DNA from: Coptis chinensis
Taxonomy: Eukaryota; Streptophyta; Magnoliopsida; Ranunculales; Ranunculaceae
NCBI GenBank assembly: GCA_015680905.1
Contig: CM027378.1
Location: 82,241,501-82,305,500 of the forward strand
DNA length: 64,000 nucleotides
Reading direction: 5' to 3'
The position numbers and the translations under genes are program-made. The notes beneath the pieces are model-generated. The model was not told the DNA's origin. It ran no database searches and was given only the letters and a program-made list of their open reading frames with translations. Within the stretch, counting starts at the first letter, position 1. Every line of letters begins with the position of its first letter. This document shows, piece after piece, positions 3,404-21,092 of the stretch.

Positions 3404-6400
3404 CTATAAATGATCATAGGATCTATGATAAACTCTAGCAAACAAAAAGCACCAGAGATTCACCTTAATGCTAAAGAGAATGCTGTTGTCAAAAACTTGC
3501 TGCCCAGAAGCGACTTCAAGCCCACGTACATATCCAGTAGAAGGTGCTTTTACGACATGCTGAACAGGAAGATAGATATAAGATCAAGAAACCATTTTTT
3601 TTATAGTGACAGACAGATGGAAGAAGAGAAATCCAAACTAAAACAAACCTCCATTTTCATGGCTTCCAACACCAAGATAGGCTGTCCCTCTACCATCTTC
3701 ATCCCATTTTTTGCCAAAATCTTAACCACCAAACCAGCCATAGGAGCCACCACAGTCCCTCGAGGGGGGGATGTCATCTCCAGATTTGGTTTATGATGGG
3801 ACACATCATCATTAGACAGATCAAGTCCGATCTTTTGCTTGAAATGGTGATGATGCTTACCATGCCATAGGTGAATATGCTTAGTATTTTCCTGGCACAA
3901 TATTCCGAAATCAGCAAATGTAAGATAAGGAAGAAAGCAATTTGAGACATTGATAATTTGATATTTCATTTAACAACAGCATCAGCTTTTAGAATGAAAG
4001 AAAAATGCAGTAACGGATCACTTGAGCTTTTATAAAGCACCATAAGAAGAAGGGTGTTTGGATCGGGAAGATTCTGATACAAGCTATGTATTAATTACTC
4101 AACATAATGAGATATGTCTTCTCTGACACGGATATGAAGTTACATTGACACGGATACGTGTGTCCGTATCCGACATGGATATGAAGTGTCTGACGAGGCA
4201 AAATATAAAAAATTGAGGTATATCACATACAATATGAGTCCGATATGTCTGACACGGACACGTGGATATGTTTCCAATACGGATTATTTTCAAAGTATGG
4301 CGTGTCCATGTAACATAGCTGGAAAGTATGCTATGCCAGAGAAAAGCACCTGAATGTTGGTGACTTGGTGTGTGTCCTTTGTACGTTACTTATACAATTG
4401 TTCTTTAAGTTGAATGTTCACTGGATATGTTACTCTTCAAGTTAAAACTGTTCAAATAGATTTTCAGAAGAATTTTTTTCAAAATTAGGGGACAGGAGTT
4501 ACACTAGAGCGAGTATCCTCACCCTGGAGACTTGTGAGGAAAAATCAGACTAAACTCAAACAGTATGAACTGAGATCAAACCATTATTTTTAGTTAATTT
4601 GGGTTTGAACCCACTAAATGAACCAAACCTATTGGTATTTAAACCCCTGAAATTCTTGTCCTATCTCAAATACAGATAGAGTAATGCTAAGAAGAAAATC
4701 ATTACATAGTTGCACCATGCAATTACTCTTAGCAGGGCTAGTATTGTGCTTTCCATTTATTACCTATGTAATTACTTTATTACCCTCTCTAGGATTTCTA
4801 TTATTCATCTATAAATATAAGTGACGAGATCTCTCATTCACTTAATTTTTCCCTAAATTACTTTCTACATGGTATCAGAGTGAGTTATAATTATTCCATA
4901 CTCCCCCTGATCGAACTCAGCGGTGAGTTCCCTGGGAGGTTATAGGAGGGCAGCGTACTTTCTACAACTACCCTCACAATGCAGTGTTACTCATGACACC
5001 CAAATTGAAAATTGGATGCCACAATCTGTGTGCCATCATCCTTCAATGGGCACACATACAAATAAATCAATGAAAACCATTTGACCCAACACTTGAAAGT
5101 GCCTCAAAATCCAAGGATTAGGAATTATCCTAGGAACGATGTTGCATAAACACAAGTCTGAGTCCGAGCCTGACACAGGTACAGAGGGCCTGTACTATCC
5201 ACATAATAAAATTTTGGGACACGATAATAGTTTTTTAAATATACACATTCAACGTTCATAATACTAAAGACTTAAATGTATGACATGGCCCAATAACACC
5301 TAGTCTCATACTCCCATGTAACCACGTTCCTGCTTATCATCATAAATCTCTTCTATGAGAGAATAAAAGGATTATTGCCCCACTTAGACATCTAAGCATG
5401 AACTGTCCTGCTTAGAATTGTAGAGTTTTTTTTCTTTTTTTGCTATTAAATTATGATATTATTACTTTATAAAGATGTTGACATTGTGCGATTAGAGAGA
5501 TCTCAGCAAAGTTGTTTTGACTATGCTAATTTCACAAATATTCCATGGCACAAGAAATTTTATAGTTGCATTCTAGACATGCCAAAATCAACTGGAAAAA
5601 AGATAAATGTGCTGAATAAGCACGTTATACCTTAGAATAAACAGCTAAACAGATATCCATGCTTAATCCGTCAGCCTCAACTCTGAAATTATGTTGGCCT
5701 AAATGTAACACTTTAATTCCCATTCCGTGGCAATCACCATCTCCTGTCTACATATAGCACACATACAAGATGGAGTATATGAACAATCAGAGACTCAGCG
5801 GAGAGAAAAATAAAACCTATATAAACGTTAGAAATTATAAGGTATAATAATGAGTATCAAATGAAGCCATATTTTCGGAAACATAAAAGTTATTACCTGA
5901 ACAAAATAAGTTCCATCTGACTGATAGCTGATGTCGAGCCTCAGATGTTTTGAGGCACTGCTATCATATTCATTGTCCCACTCAAATTCCATTGTACGCC
6001 TCGGGGAGTGATGAACTCGGAAAGGTGGATGGGCATACCATAACGAATTTAAGTTGCTCCCTGTTGAAATGAAGAGGTTGGATGCGTCATGAAATGTTAC
6101 GAGAAAACCTAACAAAATTATTCAGAGAAGTTCCCTATTTGAAGGAAGAGGACCTTTAGTTAAAGCTAAGTTTTCCTGTTTGCACATGCAGGCAGCAACT
6201 AAGGCCACAGCTCGTGAAGCAGCTGCATATGCCTTTGTTGTTAACGTTGTATCACTTGGATCATTGAAAAGGTCAGTTTTAAAACGCTCGATAAAATGGG
6301 TTTCTACTTCGCCAGCTTCAAAAGCCCAATGGTTGGCAAGCCTTAGAAGAAAATTGATGTTGGTTGGCAAGCCAGCAACCTACAAAAGGAATTTCGTACT

Positions 6401-12920: not shown

Positions 12921-14012
12921 TTTTTTTAAAGCCATTTTTTCCTTAAAACACATTAAATTTAGACATTTTCTTCAACGGTTCCAAAAGTCAAATGCACTCA
13001 ATGTACACTAATCAGCACCCTCCATCCACTCAAACTAAGGCTGAGTCCAATGGTCAGCCACCCTTTATCCTCATTCCTCAATAGCACAGTGGTATGAGGA
13101 TAGAGAGTAGGTTTGGTCGAAGCAATGGTTTGAACCATCCTACGCCAGTTCAACCGGGCGCGGTTAAAAAAAAAACCATTCGACGCCACTTCAACCAGCG
13201 CAGAATGAAAACCCACATTTTGTAAAAGACGAAACTGCCCCTGCGCCCTTTAACCGAACCTCTTTCTTCTTCCTCAGCTAATTTTCCAATTTCGCTCCAA
13301 AATTCATTTGCGCCACTTCCCCATTTAGCGCCACTCCCCCATTTAGCGCCACTTCCCCATCGACCAGGAGTTTGGAGGCTTCAATAGGTCCTGTCCTTGG
13401 TGTTAATTCTCTTGTGGAACAGGCAAGTTTTCAATTCGATTTCGATTTGTAATATATTTTATCGGTTTGGTTTGGTTTTTGGTTCCATAACCCCGATCCA
13501 AACCAATCTATTGACAGCCCCTACCGATAATATGTGAGCTAAGAAACCTTAATATCACATAATCACATATAATATTTGCTCGCATTTGTTCTTATACTGT
13601 CCCTAGTATGCGTGATTGCGTGTTAAATTGCCACCTAAGTGAGATTGTGAGGGGCAAGTTTGTGCTGTCAACCTCATGACCAATATAATATATGTATATG
13701 TACATGGCAACATGATTCGAAAGGCACAAGACGATGTGAGAAATTCGAATAAGGCAAGTAACAGTACTCAACATTCTTCAATGTCGACACAGTTACATAT
13801 AATATTGTATAATTACTGTTAGTTTCATAGGATGTTCATTGCAGTTAAAAATTTAATATGAATGGGATTTGCAAAATCCACTTGATAAACATAGCTTTGC
13901 ATGTCGACTTATTCTGAATCCCTTCAAAATGCATCACTGTGAGCTATTCTATAATGGTGTGAATTATAAAACATTGTTAAATTATATCTTCATGTACATT
14001 GTTTAATTCGAG

Positions 14013-16129
14013 TTGATCTCCAGTAAAATGTCCGGATTTGGGCGTGTACTTTGGAGTTCAAGGAGTAGAAAAAAGGCCATGAAACAAATATCTTCTCGTT
14101 CAGAGGATACAAATCCTCCTATTACATTGGATGATCCCACGTCGTATGAACGTGTTGTTCCAAATGAAGAGACACATATATTTTACAGTCTTCGAAATGG
14201 TGGGACAGTTCCAAAAATTGGTCTTAAAGGGACTTGGACTCCTGTGTTGAAGTGGATGAAATTAATAGACACCGTCGAATTTTGGCAATTCATTAATGAC
14301 ATTGGGTTCGACATTTTTGCACGAATAGATAATGAGCAGGCCGACCATGCTTTAATAGAGGCCATTGTGGAGAGATGGTGGGATTCTACCCATACGTTTC
14401 ACTTACCGTGTGGGGAGCTAGGAATCACGCCACTTGATTTCGCTATGTTGACTGGTCTGCGTATTGGAGTTGGGAAGCCGCTGGCTTATGATAAGAGCTG
14501 AGTCATTTGAGTTGGCTGAAGAATATCTCACATTGTTGAATGAAAATGACATTCAGTATGGTAGCATCAAGTTGGTTCATTTGGAGCAATATACGTGCTA
14601 TGCCTATTCCGATGAAGAGGTGGAAAGGGATATGTTTTTACGAGCTTGTATGTTGTATGTTATTGGTCATATTTTGTGTCCAAAAAGTAATAGCACGGTG
14701 TGTTTGGGGTATTTGGCGAGCCTTACTACTATAGACGATATTTGTAGTTATGATTGGGGAGGAGCTGCGTATGCGTACCTAATTCGATCTTTGGACAAAG
14801 TATGTCGCTATGGCACTGAACCTGGGACTAAAACTATGTCGGCGATATGGCAAGTGCTTGAGGTAATGAAAATTAATTACATGTTATTTATTAAATTAAG
14901 TACTTAGTTATTTGAATTTGTGAGTTAATCTAAATTAATTATGTTCAGTACTGGTATTACTCTTATTGCCAAAATGGCATGCACGCGTTATAAAAACCCG
15001 AGCCTAACCAGTTTCCAGCTATAAATAATTGGGGTCCAAGTTTTCGTCAGCATGCCTCGGGTGAAGCTCGTCATATTTTAGACCTAGCTCGACAGCAGTT
15101 AGAGTTTCGTAGTCGGGCTTCTATTATATGGCAGCCATGGAAGGGTTACATAGAACATCATTACGTTCAGAGCGCTAAAGAGTTGACTGACCTACGGTGC
15201 ATTGTGTTTGGAGCTCATGTACATACATGGTATTTGGGAGAGCGTTGTCGGCGCCAAGTGATGGGTGAAGCTTCAATTCCTTGTGCTCCACCTTCCCCTG
15301 CGGATCTTAGTTAGGCCTCTCCTGTGACACTACAGTGGTGGTCAGAAAATGTTGGTGTTCCTGCTGCTAGTTTGGTCCGACTTGTTAGTGAGGATCAGTA
15401 CAAAGCTTATTGGGGTCACGTGTCAGTAGGTATGCTTCTTCCCGCCTTGCGTAGAGCTGTAAATGTGGACTACATTGGTCCATCTGGTCTCCAGGATGAT
15501 GTGCATATCTCACAACCGGTAGATGCGACCTTGTCTTACACACCTTACCCCCAGAGAGAGCGTGAGGTCAATGCACCCGACACTGCAAGCAACTGGACTG
15601 TCCCTATCACTTTACAGAATGGGCAGATCATTCATGACCATATTGAACCAGTGGGTCGAGAATCAGTGCCACAACTTCCTATTTCTGATCAGATGTCTCG
15701 TGTAAGTAACTTAATTTGTTTGATTGTTTTATTTGCATTTGTTACCGTACTTGTTAGTGTTGGTTATGATAAGTAATTGTTATCTTTGAATATATGCAGG
15801 CTAAGATGAAGGCAATGTTAGAGGATGTTCTACATGCAAATGCTTCAAAGGCTCGAGTTATATCTCATATCTCAAATGGGGTGTATAGTACTCCAGGTGA
15901 TGTCATTCGAGCTTTTAACGACACTGTTGGTCATAGTAGTTCAGAGGATCAACATACTCATTCCCAAGTATTTGAGACTCATATGACTCCACTGGGAGGT
16001 GTATACTATCCTCAATTTGAGCCTCCACAAACATCTAGGCGCCACTCCAACTTTCATGGTGACTCCGGCTTTGATGGCGTTAGAAGTACTTTTCAGGGGG
16101 ATAGTAGTGGCAGTGGAGGGTGGTTTTAG
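14013..16129 (+). pseudogene. Plant mobile domain (MAIN-like) gene, broken
   Basis: The translation matches the plant mobile domain family (MAIN/MAIL and the 'phosphatase 7 long form' proteins), nuclear proteins of partly known silencing roles that are also carried by plant transposons. Visible blocks: GTWTPVLKWMKL, ALIEAIVERWWDSTHTFHLP, GELGITPLDFAMLTGL (residues about 80-155), then YVIGHILCPKS and WGGAAYAYLIRSL after a frameshift near 14490. Further exons begin near 14949 (WYYSYCQNG, IIWQPWKGYIEHHY), 15324 and 15800. Breaks include the frameshift near 14490, a stop near 14990 and a TAG near 15312. Introns remain, so it is not a retrocopy. It lies inside the proposed PIF/Harbinger element and reads towards the epsin fragment. 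Confidence 0.75.
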
Positions 16130-16283
16130 CACGGTACTTTAATAGCTCCCTTGGTGGCTTGATGGTATAACATCCTCAAATTTTTAACCTTGGATTATTT
16201 TAGCTATTTTTATAAATATATTTTTGTGATGCTTGTACTCATGATCTTGTAACTTACTTGTGACATTTTTTTTTCATCTTGCA

Positions 16284-16430
16284 GACGCTGTCTGATTTTC
16301 AATACATTGATTCTAGTGGGAGAGACCAGGGAAGTGATGTCAGGAAGAAGTCTCAGTCTTGTGGCACTAGTGAATGACAAAGAGAGAATCTTGGAAGCTA
16401 GACAGAAAGCCAGTGCAAACCGGGACAAGT
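16284..16430 (+). pseudogene. Epsin (ENTH domain) exon fragment, frameshifted
   Basis: After a pyrimidine-rich acceptor (CATCTTGCAG) the frame reads TLSDFQYIDSSGRDQGSDVR, the end of the ENTH domain of plant epsins, which recruit clathrin in endosomal and Golgi trafficking. A single missing base in the QSLVAL block shifts the frame, after which NDKERILEARQK and ANRDK follow. A GT donor follows the AAG. A possible next piece (SSSGGRAEE) follows an acceptor near 17130 and hits a stop. It is a short intron-flanked piece of a host gene, in the same orientation as the plant-mobile-domain pseudogene. Confidence 0.7.
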
Positions 16431-17640
16431 GAGTTTGACTTTCAAGATTATAGGGTCTAGTAAATCATTTTCGTTTGGTCCAAGTTGTGAACTTGGATGG
16501 CTTATCCTTGGATTCCTTTGCTTTAGGTTGGGTGTTGGTTCTACCTTTAGCTAGTTTTAGTAGATTAAAGCTTTCATCATCATCATAGGCTCGATCTTTC
16601 ATGACAGTGCTATTACTCAAATATTTGCTTGAGATGAATATTTGTCATTTTACTCAAATATTCTTTCGTTATGAACATGATTTATGTTCAGTTTAGTTCA
16701 GTCAGACAATCTGCTTCAGCCCTTGTTAGATAGATGGAAGAACTGTTGATTACATGAAATTATTTGTTTGTTAAATTAAATGAGTATGTGTCTGCGATTT
16801 TCTTAGCTTGTCATTCAAGAGTTATTACAGGCTTTAAGCCTTGCTAGGAAGAACTACTTATAAAGAAAGCCTATGATGATGATGATGGCCGCTATTCATC
16901 TCGGTATTTTTTCTCTTATAAAGAAAGCTAGATTTGTGATGATTTTGGCATTCCTTAATGGTTACATCGTCAAGATAGCTTCCTAGTCCAATGTTGATTT
17001 TATTAAATGTGATAACACTTACTGTATGTTGTAAAATTCCCGATCCTTTATTATGGCTATCGATATCATAACTCTTACTAGTACAATGCCATGAACGACA
17101 TAGTCATATATAGCCTTTCTTTGTTACAGCAGTAGTGGTGGACGAGCAGAAGAATAGTCTCAAGATGAATGGTAATTTTTCAGCAGGTACTCATTTAAAC
17201 CACTTTTCTTTGGGACTTTGTTACGGACCCTCGGTTTCAATCACACTAACAGCAACTGGAGGACGTATTTCCTTTCAAGTTGTAATATAGTTTTTAAAAT
17301 ATATTTCCTTTCAAGTTGTAATAAGTGGAGGACTTATTTATTATGTTTGTAAGAAATATTTAATTTCCTCAAATGGTGTATATATTTGATATCATGTTGA
17401 TTATGGGAAAGTATTGAAAATACAAGGAGATTGTCGGGTATGACAGGATGTAATAATGTAGTTTATGATACATTGCAGGTATGATAGGATTAATATTATG
17501 AAAAAGTACTGAAAATACAAAGGAGGCTCTGTCCTTTTTTTTTTTTTTTCAAAAGATAGTTTATAATATGTAACTTCGAACACATAACATTTGAAATACA
17601 AAACTTAAAAGTTACATACAACACAACATACAACATTGAA
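16431..17640 (+). other. Non-coding interior of the composite element
   Basis: AT-rich sequence lies between the epsin exon and the transposase. It has no exon that I can place apart from the possible epsin remnant near 17130-17155. Two similar stretches near 17407-17425 and 17503-17522 (AGTACTGAAAATACAAAGGAG type) are a short direct repeat. Confidence 0.35.
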
Positions 17641-17650
17641 ACGTGAAGAC

Positions 17651-17788
17651 TGAAACTTGGAAATAATAAGACAACAAATAACTTTATTTATTAGTTTGAA
17701 CTTGGAAATAATAAGACAACAAATAACTTTATTTATTGGTTTGAACTTGGAAATAATAAGACACCAAACAACTTTATTTATTGGTTTG
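17651..17788. repeat. Three tandem copies of a 46-bp unit at the transposase 3' end
   Basis: The unit AACTTGGAAATAATAAGACA continues with ACAAATAACTTTATTTATT and occurs three times in a row (starting about 17653, 17698 and 17744) with few differences. The last copy overlaps the stop codon of the transposase frame. It may be 3' untranslated or subterminal repeat sequence. Confidence 0.8.
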
Positions 17789-19177
17789 CACGCCATTCCC
17801 ACAAGTGATTAATTAAGCGTTGTTCTAATTCTCTATGCTCAACTCGATTGTGCATATAAGCTAAACGTTGTAGGATTCTTATAAATTCAACATTACTAGT
17901 GTCTCGTTCAAGAACAATATGTGGGACAGCAGCCTCTTCATAATTATAGTCCCTAGTAGGTGGTAAATCTCCAAACTCTTCTGCATACACATATGTATGT
18001 CTTTCTTCTTCCACAATCATGTTATGCATAATTATGCATGCTGACATAACATCATGCAACACATCTTTCTCCCATAGGTGAGCTCGACCCCTAACAATGG
18101 CAAATCTTTTTTGAAGAACTCCAAATGCTCGTTTAACATCTTTCCTGTAACACTCTTGCATCTGTGTAAAAAATTGTTCTCTTTCACCTCTAGGTTTTTT
18201 AATCGCTTTTACTAGTGTAGACCATTTAGGATATATACCATCCGTCAGATAGTAACCAATGGTGTAGTTTTTACCCATGAGAGTATAGTTTGCAGGAGGG
18301 GTAAGACCAAACATGAGATTATTGAAAAGAGTAGAGCGCCACAAAACATTAACGTCATTATTAGTACCTGGTAGGCCGAAGTAAGCGTGCCATATCCACA
18401 TGTCGTAAGAAGCAACTACCTCGAGTATGATGGTTGCAGCTCCATGTCTTCCAGTGTACTGTCCTGCCCACTCTGTTGGACATGCTTCCCAAGTCCAATG
18501 CATACAATCGAGACTACCAAGCATTCTTGGAAACCCCCTTAGCTCAGAAATGTTAAGCAACCTTGCAATGTCCTCCTGGTTTGGTTCTCTCAAATATTCG
18601 GGACCAAATGCCTCCACTATATGTTGGCAGAACAATTTTACATATGAGAGTATGGTTGATTTAGCAATGCGGAAATATTGATCCAGAAAATCAGCTGGGG
18701 TTCCGTAAGCTACCGTTTGCAATGCACACAATATTTTTCCCCGAGATGACAATCCGACTTTACCAGCTGCGTCAGATTTCTCTTCCAAACGTCACTATGT
18801 TGCTTTAGGCGACTCCTAATCTTCAAGAATAACTGACTACTCATTCGGTTGCGACTGTTGAAAATGCCTTCATCATATGTGGGATTCGGACCAAAGTAAT
18901 CAGCCTTTAGACGAGCATTGCCCATGACTCTATTACAGTTACGATACTTGCGTCCTGCAATAGACCCTAGACGGGGACTTTCAGGTTGAATGGCATTACT
19001 ATAGATAGCAATCGCTGCAGCAAGATTTGCTTGGATGCCAATAGCTATGGTATCCAAAAAATCTTGATCTTGTTGGTAGAATTGAAGAAAATGATTTCTT
19101 CGATTAATAGCATCATTGTCTTCATTATCAGAAGAGTTGGAAGAATGATGATGAGAAGGACCAGCTCCAGAGGCCAT
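17778..19177 (-). pseudogene. PIF/Harbinger DDE transposase, frameshifted
   Basis: This is a HARBI1-type nuclease/transposase in two frames. Residues 1-140 or so (from 19177) include the family block NCNRVMGNARLKADYFGPNP and NRMSSQLFLKIRSRL. The frame breaks near 18785-18790 and continues in the adjacent frame from EEKSDAAGKVGLS. DDE blocks: GSLDCMHWTW (first Asp), GLPGTNNDVNVLWRS (second Asp), YYLTDGIYPKWSTLVK, then KDVKRAFGVLQKRF. In the family the last block carries the third catalytic acid as VERAFG. Here the codon at 18132-18134 is AAA, giving Lys. The frameshift and the lost Glu together make it very likely inactive. It is divergently arranged with ORF1, which starts near 19581. Confidence 0.9.
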
Positions 19178-19256
19178 TTTCCTTAAGATTATACAAGAAA
19201 GAGAAAATAATGAACGAAGTAAGAAGGTACATTGGAATGGTATATGCTTATTATTG

Positions 19257-19463
19257 TTTATATAGACAAATGAAATCTAAAATTGAGGTCCAAATTTTTT
19301 GAAGATAAGATTTTGGAGAATGGGGAATGGAGATTGGAGATTGGAGCGAGTGCCACATTTATTTCCTTGGAACGAGTGCCACATTTATTTCCTTGGAGCG
19401 AGTGCCACATTTATTTCCTGACTTAGAGCGAGTGCCACATTTATGATTTTTTAGTTATAAATA
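19257..19463. promoter_or_regulatory. Divergent promoter with two TATA boxes and four short direct repeats
   Basis: The 400-bp gap between transposase and ORF1 contains TATATAAA on the minus strand (19257-19264) for the transposase and TATAAATA on the plus strand (19456-19463) for ORF1. Between them the word GAGCGAGTGCCACATTTAT occurs four times (about 19345, 19371, 19397 and 19427; spacing 26, 26 and 30 bp), with one base changed in the second copy. Such a shared control region fits a two-gene transposon. The repeats could bind the Myb-like ORF1 product, which is inference. Confidence 0.6.
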
Positions 19464-19580
19464 CGTATCCATTCTCATCATACAATTCACACATTTCTCA
19501 TTCTGTTTTGAACCAACAAAAAATAAAATCTCATTCTCTCAGTTTTATTCTCATTTAGTACTAAGCTTGTTTTATAGCAA

Positions 19581-20543
19581 TGTCTTCTAGGAATCGTCAT
19601 TTAACCCAATGGAAGACACAATTTTGATTGAAACATGGTTACAGTTCTCTATTGATCCAATTACTGGGATCAACCAGTCCTATAACATGCTCTGGGATAA
19701 TATTGCGAATCACTACGAGACAGAGAGATTGAAGTTCTGTTATATTCATCGAACCAAGAAAAGCTTGGAAAATCGTTGGGGAAGTATCAACAAAGCTATA
19801 ACTCGTTTTAGGTGGTTGTGTCCATCTAATTTGAATCATTTAACATTTCTGGAGCAAACGATGCACATATTGTAAGTATTGATATGAAATTCACTAGTAT
19901 TGTTAAATTTAATTTGTATTTCATTTAATATTACAGTTTGTATAATTTTTCTTAACAGATGACACAAGCAAAACAGATGTATGTCAAAAGGTCAACGGGT
20001 CACAAGAATTTTACCATGGATCACGCATGGGAACTATTGAAAGACAACCAGAAATGGGCTCCACATGAAGTCTCACCGACACCTGGCATCTCCATTAACA
20101 ATATGGATTTCACATCACCCGCGTCAGTAAACATTAGCGTCGAGACTGGGGCAACACCTGATTCTGGTATGCCAGGAAATCCTTCGTCGACAAGGGTACG
20201 TGGGCGAGACAAAGCAAAACAAGTGAAAAGAGCTGAATCACAAAATGCACCCAGTCTGAAGAATATTGAAGAATACTCTCGACGAGCGATGAAGGCTATT
20301 GAAGACTCGCATGACCGCGGGAAAAAAGCCTATGAAGTTTATGAATCCAGTGAAAAAAATTCTTTACATGGTAAAAATAAAGAGAAGGAGCCAACCCTCG
20401 CGAGATTGGAGTGGGAGTCAAAAATCATGACCACAAATACTTCAGATATGACACCAGAGGGGAAAATATATTATAAGGGGATGAAACGTCAAATTAATCA
20501 CGGATATGCAAAACGCGTATGTCCGGTGTATCAAGGAACTTAG
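19581..20543 (+). pseudogene. PIF/Harbinger ORF1, Myb/SANT-like DNA-binding protein
   Basis: This accessory protein normally works with the transposase. A short first frame (MSSRNRHLTQWK) is out of frame with the main one, which reads TILIETWLQFSIDPITGINQ and NRWGSINKAITRFRW, the trihelix/Myb-like block of plant PIF ORF1 and 'No apical meristem-associated' proteins. A GT-AG intron spans about 19874-19958. Exon 2 (19959-20543) gives YVKRSTGHKNFTMDHAWELL, a low-complexity middle and a charged C-terminal region (EPTLARLEWESKIM). The early frameshift near 19610 probably disables it. It lies 400 bp from the divergent transposase and 550 bp from the right end of the element. Confidence 0.8.
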
Positions 20544-21092
20544 ACTTCACCGAATGCGACGAAGATTCCGATTGAAATTGAATATCTTTTGGAAGTGTTG
20601 TGTTATTTCATGCCATTTTAATTTCTGTGTGTTGTAATAATGAAATGTTTTTTTTTTTTTTTTTTTTTATGTTATGCAATTCGTTTTATTTTATAATTGT
20701 CAATTAATTTGGAAAATTTTGTTTTAATTACGCAAAAACACACATGGCAAAATTAAATTAAATTGAGTAATAAGATACATCCGTAATAAAATAGAAGTAG
20801 TGGGAGTAGTGTAGTAATTCACTGTTCTCATAATTACCATGTTATCTGGTGGGGACACTTTGCAAACCACTCCACTTCAAATGGCGCGGTTTGAAATTGC
20901 ATATTGCATTCCACGCCACTTGAAGTGGCGCCGTTTGAGTTTTTATAAACCACTCCACTTCAAGTGGCGTGGAATGCACTCTCTATTCCTCCATTTCACT
21001 CTCTATATATGGAGAGTAAAATAGAGATGGGGGGCAATGACCACCGCCACTCCCTCCAGTTTTGAAGGAATGGGGTGCCATTGCACCCAGCC
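20544..21092. repeat. Right subterminal region of the PIF/Harbinger element
   Basis: After ORF1 there is a long T run (about 20648-20668). Then, at 20860-20975, there are three near-palindromic repeats of CACTCCACTTCAAGTGGCGTGG type in both orientations. The region ends in ATTGCACCCAGCC at 21092 followed by TAA. Similar CGCCACTTCAA words lie near the left end (13180-13200 and 13310-13360). Subterminal repeats of this sort are typical transposase-binding sites. Confidence 0.55.

Follow-up and report, generated by a model that had tools for sequence, protein, structure and literature searches.

Genes with a plant mobile domain (PMD) occur in transposons: the available text of PMC5418596 (Ikeda et al. 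2017) reports them from Gypsy elements and, in several grasses and Amborella, from MULEs. Here we describe a PMD gene within a PIF/Harbinger element, found in a 64,000-nucleotide stretch of the Coptis chinensis genome (C2:82241501-82305500; hereafter the window). The genome comprises 935.6 Mb in 116 contigs. The element shares with PIF/Harbinger transposons of the Plant_tran / DDE_Tnp_4 type the transposase family, a NAM-associated/Myb-like ORF1, short inverted ends and a TWA duplication, but it differs from the usual members in a third gene, the PMD gene, which is kept across two families, and in the length of its ten two-ended copies, 7.1-9.4 kb. We conclude, with a probability of roughly 85%, that the window element is a defective member of a PIF/Harbinger family with three genes, PMD (+), transposase (-) and ORF1 (+), between short inverted ends and TWA duplications. 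It moves as a unit in its own family (family A), the layout recurs in a second family (family B), PMD and transposase have diverged to a similar extent with a ratio of nonsynonymous to synonymous substitution rates (dN/dS) below 1 for PMD, and an epsin piece was captured later.

The described systems each match part of this arrangement. MULEs with PMD-C are likewise DNA transposons carrying a plant mobile domain, but in the available part of PMC5418596 the domain is reported as fused to the MULE transposase, whereas here a separate gene with three predicted exons lies beside a PIF/Harbinger transposase. The Ty3/Gypsy elements with PMD-A of the same text also carry a PMD, but they are retrotransposons and not cut-and-paste elements. 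Pack-TYPE elements, among which the accessible text of PMC8903248 reports Pack-PIF elements, resemble the epsin piece in holding gene fragments between PIF-type ends. They are described there as non-autonomous, with no transposase of their own, whereas the unit in the window holds both transposase and ORF1 (broken in this copy), and its PMD is a whole gene with dN/dS <1. Finally, PMC12730594, in the sections available, reports Harbingers with TET/JBP genes in rust fungi and cites SET-bearing Harbingers (HarbingerS) in oomycetes. These, and VANDAL elements with VANC, are likewise DNA transposons with an additional gene for which an action on chromatin has been demonstrated or proposed, but the VANC, TET and SET proteins are unrelated to PMD, for which a role is only proposed here.

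In the portions available, PMC7156037, which treats MAIN, MAIL1 and PP7L, does not contain the word 'Harbinger'; PMC10673657, on phasiRNAs that arise in tea from PMD and transposase genes, mentions neither Harbinger nor PIF; and none of the terms PIF, Harbinger, PMD and plant mobile domain appears in a 2026 review of gene capture (PMC13317346). The original prediction, made from the letters of the window, had named no described PIF/Harbinger carrier of a PMD. Our search of the published literature, Repbase, preprints and subscription papers aside, gave Gypsy and MULE carriers and no PIF/Harbinger carrier among the papers listed, and the novelty of the present family is provisional.

Outline and copies of the element

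The window contains one PIF/Harbinger copy, at 13039-21092, with TAA on both sides. Its terminal inverted repeats have the short length seen in PIF/Harbinger elements (15 bp) and are identical at 13 of 15 positions between the two ends. The right one (21078-21092) is the complement of GGCTGGGTGCAATGG, present in the sequence as predicted, and the ends are backed by subterminal arms at 13170-13210 and 20904-20944 with 73% identity over 41 nt.

Twenty further copies, picked from the strongest genome matches and fetched as 10-kb stretches, were aligned to the window element. Both ends were found in 10 of the 21 copies, namely the window and nine fetched ones (seven at first, and two more once four loci had been extended). 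These ten elements are 7.1 to 9.4 kb long, and every one is flanked by an identical 3-bp duplication, TAA in five cases and TTA in five. The flanks themselves are unlike, with no pair of the ten having more than three 12-mers in common (flanks of up to 200 bp). In the remaining 11 of the 20 fetched copies, one or both ends were absent from the fetched stretch, or the copy is truncated or interrupted. Each of the nine other two-ended copies has, within one duplication, the two ends of the window element and, between them, a PMD block and sequence of the transposase and ORF1; the transposase is partly missing in two of them (L011 and L028).

Because of these multiple copies, chance is excluded as an explanation of the outline. 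Since the two-ended copies span it entirely, the transposase element has its left end at 13039, and an element ending near 17600 beside an unrelated miniature inverted-repeat transposable element (MITE) at 13039, which the original prediction had named as the competing outline, is ruled out by the multi-copy alignment. Thus, the predicted bracketing of one element by the two ends and TAA flanks is confirmed, both in the window and by the matching duplications of all ten two-ended copies, and the proposed genome search for copies with both ends has brought up nine more in which the PMD block travels with the transposase.

One copy, L020, contains at 4461-4720 of its reverse complement a nested sequence of 260 bp that is flanked by TTA and has ends like those of Harbinger elements; it looks like a MITE with related ends. 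A cluster of family A fragments was observed at C5:51359564-51397460 (L017), where a left-end-like sequence beyond the expected right end suggests rearranged or tandem copies.

Genes of the element

Analysis with Pfam assigned the transposase open reading frame (ORF; 17778-18791, - strand) to Plant_tran (PF04827, 6.2e-96) and DDE_Tnp_4 (PF13359, 2.4e-10), the DDE type of plant PIF transposases. The ORF at 19956-20543 (+ strand) within ORF1 matched the NAM-associated family (4.5e-16), in line with the Myb/SANT-like second ORF of PIF/Harbinger elements, and the Myb_DNA-bind_6 match in ORF1, taken by itself (0.011), stayed under the Pfam cut-off. The PMD (PF10536) was recognized at 14007-14501 on the + strand (3.6e-12), with weaker pieces (0.001 and 0.0046) reaching 15314.

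The PMD gene is fully open in copy L011, with 639 codons in exons of 837, 753 and 330 bases, separated by two putative GT-AG introns of 86 and 98 bases. The predicted protein scores 101.3 bits against PF10536 (cut-off 34.9) over profile positions 12-295 of 347 (8.5e-29). The L011 transposase comprises only 208 of 459 codons, and this copy with the best PMD gene therefore cannot supply its own transposase.

Judged by its reading frames, the window copy is dead: the PMD gene is broken, one frameshift splits the transposase into two overlapping frames, and the Glu codon reads AAA (Lys), so that the residues D, D and E, which we take to be catalytic, are not intact. Among the fetched copies of family A, this codon is readable in 16 and encodes Glu in 15 of them (14 GAA and 1 GAG), the exception being L016 with AAA (Lys). 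The first Asp is lost in L010 and L027, and Lys is read at the third catalytic position in the family B locus L037. The lost catalytic Glu marks a dead copy and not a non-member of PIF/Harbinger.

The PMD protein of family A has 27-31% identity to one of two other PMD loci of the genome (L041) and no meaningful match to the other (L040). The 117 best-scoring Pfam PMD loci, from 3773 first-look candidates, all start at least 10 kb from each of 121 transposase matches, one of the 117 lying 14.5 kb from a match of 43%. This distance suggests that the element PMD forms a lineage of its own. The genome is very rich in PMD sequences, many of them open.

A second family and a probable shared history

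A search with the L011 PMD protein gave at least 108 matches from 69 scored of 3604 candidates. The matches listed consist of near copies, mostly at 69-99% identity, a second group at about 46-56%, and some lower-identity fragments of either. With the transposase protein, 2359 candidates, of which 121 were scored, gave at least 121 matches, and these fall into three steps, at about 78-100%, 56-76% and 43-50%. Co-location within 8 kb was counted for 68 of the 108 PMD matches and all 121 transposase matches, the counts being of matches and not of elements. Among the matches listed, a PMD match was found within this distance of 12 of 18 transposase matches in the top class (taken as 77% identity or more), 20 of 36 in the middle class and 0 of 67 in the lowest class, and all 32 pairs are convergent. 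For the middle class, the chance expectation is 0.04 pairs as compared to the 20 seen. Seventeen of these 20 include a diverged PMD. The remaining three have the PMD of family A (85-88%) and represent worn copies of that family; one of them coincides with an element already matched in the top class.

Family B is represented by loci L035, L036 and L037, whose longest PMD blocks resemble one another at 92-95%. PMD, transposase and ORF1 were all matched in the three loci, in the order and orientation of family A. Apart from simple-repeat matches, only the coding parts align between the two families. In L036 and L037, a search motif that is L036's own and one base off the left end in the window located right ends with TAA directly after them; L035 displayed no convincing end.

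Between the families, the PMD of L011 compared with that of L035-L037 gave dN of 0.40-0.44, dS of 0.89-0.99 and dN/dS of 0.41-0.49. The corresponding ratios of the proportions of nonsynonymous and synonymous differences (pN/pS) were 0.57-0.63, with upper bounds below 0.72. The window transposase compared with the same loci gave dS of 0.84-1.11 and dN/dS of 0.23-0.27. The similar dS values for PMD and transposase fit one shared history, and the low dN/dS between families suggests that both proteins mattered during that history. Decay of dead copies raises dN/dS, and mutation bias lowers it.

Within family A, pN/pS was pooled over pairwise comparisons after dropping copies with less than 60% of the codons. 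The values were 0.739 for PMD (0.626-0.878; 20 copies), 0.706 for the transposase (0.544-0.937; 13 copies) and 0.611 for ORF1 (0.474-0.813; 14 copies). We also compared counts of nonsynonymous and synonymous variants (N/S), expressed relative to neutral expectation, with 1000 simulations that preserved mutation type and CpG context. Variants in single copies look neutral for the transposase (1.21) and ORF1 (0.97). Among variants in at least two copies, N/S was 0.50 for the transposase (2 of 1000 simulations as low) and 0.77 for ORF1 (242 of 1000); among those in at least three copies it was 0.55 (55 of 1000) and 0.51 (27 of 1000), respectively.

Several results weigh against a constrained PMD gene that has long belonged to two families. 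The gene contains stops, frame-breaking indels or missing parts on the L011 model in 20 of the 21 copies, the window included. Variants of the PMD found in single copies also look neutral (0.98), and N/S for the shared ones indicates weak constraint, at 0.75 in at least two copies (63 of 1000 simulations as low) and 0.69 in at least three (87 of 1000). The pN/pS and dN/dS values, both within family A and between families, are uncorrected for mutation bias, which pushes pN/pS below 1. In addition, the matches listed include no nearby partner for 16 of the 36 transposase matches in the middle class and for 14 of the 32 diverged matches to the PMD; since the lists hold only part of all matches, a missing partner is weak evidence of absence. 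The left ends of family B were not found, even with L036 extended.

The signal of PMD constraint within family A is therefore weak and suggestive only, and it is the between-family result, by which constraint is supported, that carries the case. The structure of the element and the long association of PMD and transposase are well supported.

Captured epsin piece and kinase-like block

The segment 16236-17255 matches a host locus at C19:250540-252593 (L029) in three parts (16236-16445, 16447-16560 and 16876-17255) at 93-96%, the intervening parts being missing. The host locus has two ENTH exons (PF01417, 6.3e-10 and 1.6e-7), and the captured part includes the one that scores 6.3e-10. Thus, the predicted carriage of an ENTH exon by the element is real, and the C19 locus is its probable source. 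The piece is present in only four of 21 copies (the window, L009, L023 and L010, the last with a different internal deletion), which rules out ENTH as an original part of the element. It is a recent addition, later than the PMD, in one sublineage and 3' of the PMD gene. Because intron sequence is kept, the epsin capture took place at the DNA level. The original prediction of DNA-level gene capture thus holds for the ENTH piece and not for the PMD, an old constrained component common to both families.

At the same place 3' of the PMD, a kinase-like block is found in L011 (4588-5509, - strand), L013 and L016, interrupted in L020 and partial in L010, L014 and L024. Some 760 bp of it (query bases 111 to 871-873) recur at 84-90% at seven loci that have no matches to the Harbinger flanks (C3:104946257, C8:95044830, C1:33756110, C1:4762560, C5:35144266, C5:92280593 and C3:122538642). 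This recurrence suggests a repeat of its own, and a second direct capture was dropped as an explanation. A search for ends belonging to the block found none, and Pfam returned nothing in the block or in three other unexplained ORFs. The translated block has a weak match in PDB to a plant CDPK (AK1, E 0.005), and one piece alone gave only muscle and calmodulin matches; we presume the block to be closer to CDPK-related kinases. It may have entered as a nested repeat or been captured at second hand, and the copies at the seven loci may be a gene fragment that another mobile element has spread.

Features of the window copy

The features of the window copy are collected in Table 1. A relative of 13435-13985 (93%) was found at C5:95962 kb (L033). 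The 26-bp repeat has several extra overlapping matches in L020, suggesting a variable copy number.

Table 1. Positions, in the window, of the parts of the PIF/Harbinger copy
Feature	Position	Strand	Remarks
Left target-site duplication TAA	13036-13038		Read from sequence and copy comparison
Left terminal inverted repeat GGCTGAGTCCAATGG	13039-13053		15-mer; 0 or 1 mismatch across 10/10 two-ended copies
Left arm, subterminal inverted repeat	13170-13210		Pairs with 20904-20944
Replacing 5' sequence	13433-13985		L009 and L010 hold a different 430-470 bp at that place
PMD exon 1 (predicted)	14028-14862	+	L011 model projected by eye; frame lost, stop 14499-14501; PF10536
PMD exon 2 (predicted)	14949-15701	+	Projected by eye; stop 15312-15314 in the window copy
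PMD exon 3 (predicted)	15800-16129	+	Projected by eye from the L011 model
Captured epsin-like fragment	16236-17255	+	One ENTH exon and intron pieces; internal deletions
PIF/Harbinger transposase	17781-19180	-	Frameshift near 18780; codon 18132-18134 AAA (Lys), third catalytic residue
26-bp tandem repeat	19341-19444		Between transposase start and ORF1
ORF1	19591-20543	+	Presumed exons: two open stretches; NAM-associated domain at the C-terminus, weak Myb-like match at the N-terminus
Right arm, subterminal inverted repeat	20904-20944		Pairs with 13170-13210
Right terminal inverted repeat CCATTGCACCCAGCC	21078-21092		
Right target-site duplication TAA	21093-21095		

Discussion

The following history would account for these observations. 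An ancestor of families A and B would have acquired the PMD gene, which may have been retained since its protein helps the element to persist, with the transposase and ORF1 presumably performing the cutting and pasting. The likeliest way for the PMD to help would be interference with host silencing, for example by competing with the related MAIN/MAIL1, which silence transposons alongside the phosphatase PP7L. The epsin piece would be a passenger, probably copied during excision-gap repair with template switching. An anti-silencing use of transposon-borne PMD has been suggested before, in the available parts of PMC5418596 and PMC8616336, and the chromatin genes (TET/JBP, SET) of Harbingers in rust fungi and oomycetes also speak for such a role. 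For the element PMD, we propose a counter-silencing role only tentatively. It is possible, at similarly modest odds, that we are dealing with a PIF/Harbinger clade that has its own PMD gene as a silencing antagonist, mimicking the host MAIN/MAIL1-PP7L pathway and kept by selection, which would be the third independent PMD association after Gypsy and MULE.

Alternatively, the PMD may be kept for a direct role in transposition, such as nuclear entry, end binding or target choice, and not for anti-silencing. The linkage of PMD and transposase in both families with similar dS, and the compact unit of three genes, suit such a role. On the other hand, the 67 distant transposase matches (43-50%) have no PMD nearby among the matches listed, and in L038, the sole distant transposase locus fetched, no PMD match was found in 9.3 kb. 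PIF/Harbinger transposition in general probably has no need of a PMD. As ORF1 was likewise unmatched in L038, a distant PMD there could have been overlooked. On balance, we regard a direct role as doubtful.

It is improbable that the PMD is a neutral passenger that is merely decaying, even though it is broken or incomplete in 20 of the 21 copies and the shared-variant signal is not significant (63 of 1000). The earlier description of the PMD gene as a pseudogene does apply to the window copy and to 19 of the 20 fetched copies; it fails for L011 with its open frame of 639 codons. The between-family dN/dS of 0.41-0.49 and pN/pS intervals that all lie below 0.72, seen even in copies that are themselves decaying, though without a mutation-bias null, also argue against neutrality. 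An incidental pseudogene is ruled out by the open L011 frame together with the divergence between families.

A composite origin, by which a separate PMD-bearing transposon was inserted in a Harbinger copy and carried along as a passenger, is very improbable. PMD genes are abundant in the genome (3773 first-look candidates, 117 scored), Gypsy and MULE elements are among their known carriers, and a second pair of ends around the PMD was not systematically searched for, with 25 of 76 inverted-repeat pairs listed. Nevertheless, the two families share their layout, PMD and transposase are similar in dS, the between-family PMD dN/dS is below 1, and the absence of the 117 best-scoring Pfam PMD loci from within 10 kb of the 121 transposase matches points to a distinct lineage. 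That the epsin piece is a functional part of the element is scarcely credible: four copies do share the same left junction region, but these are only four of 21, their internal deletions differ (L010), and a single ENTH-domain exon is left.

PMD proteins silence transposons in Arabidopsis, yet transposons carry PMD genes too. With a separate PMD gene, a dN/dS below 1 and a third transposon superfamily, the three-gene PIF/Harbinger family would make transposon-borne counter-silencing directly testable, and Harbinger elements with and without a PMD offer a natural comparison in one genome. The recent capture of the epsin piece, the probable source locus of which is still present, shows that a PIF/Harbinger unit containing transposase and ORF1 has taken up host sequence at the DNA level.

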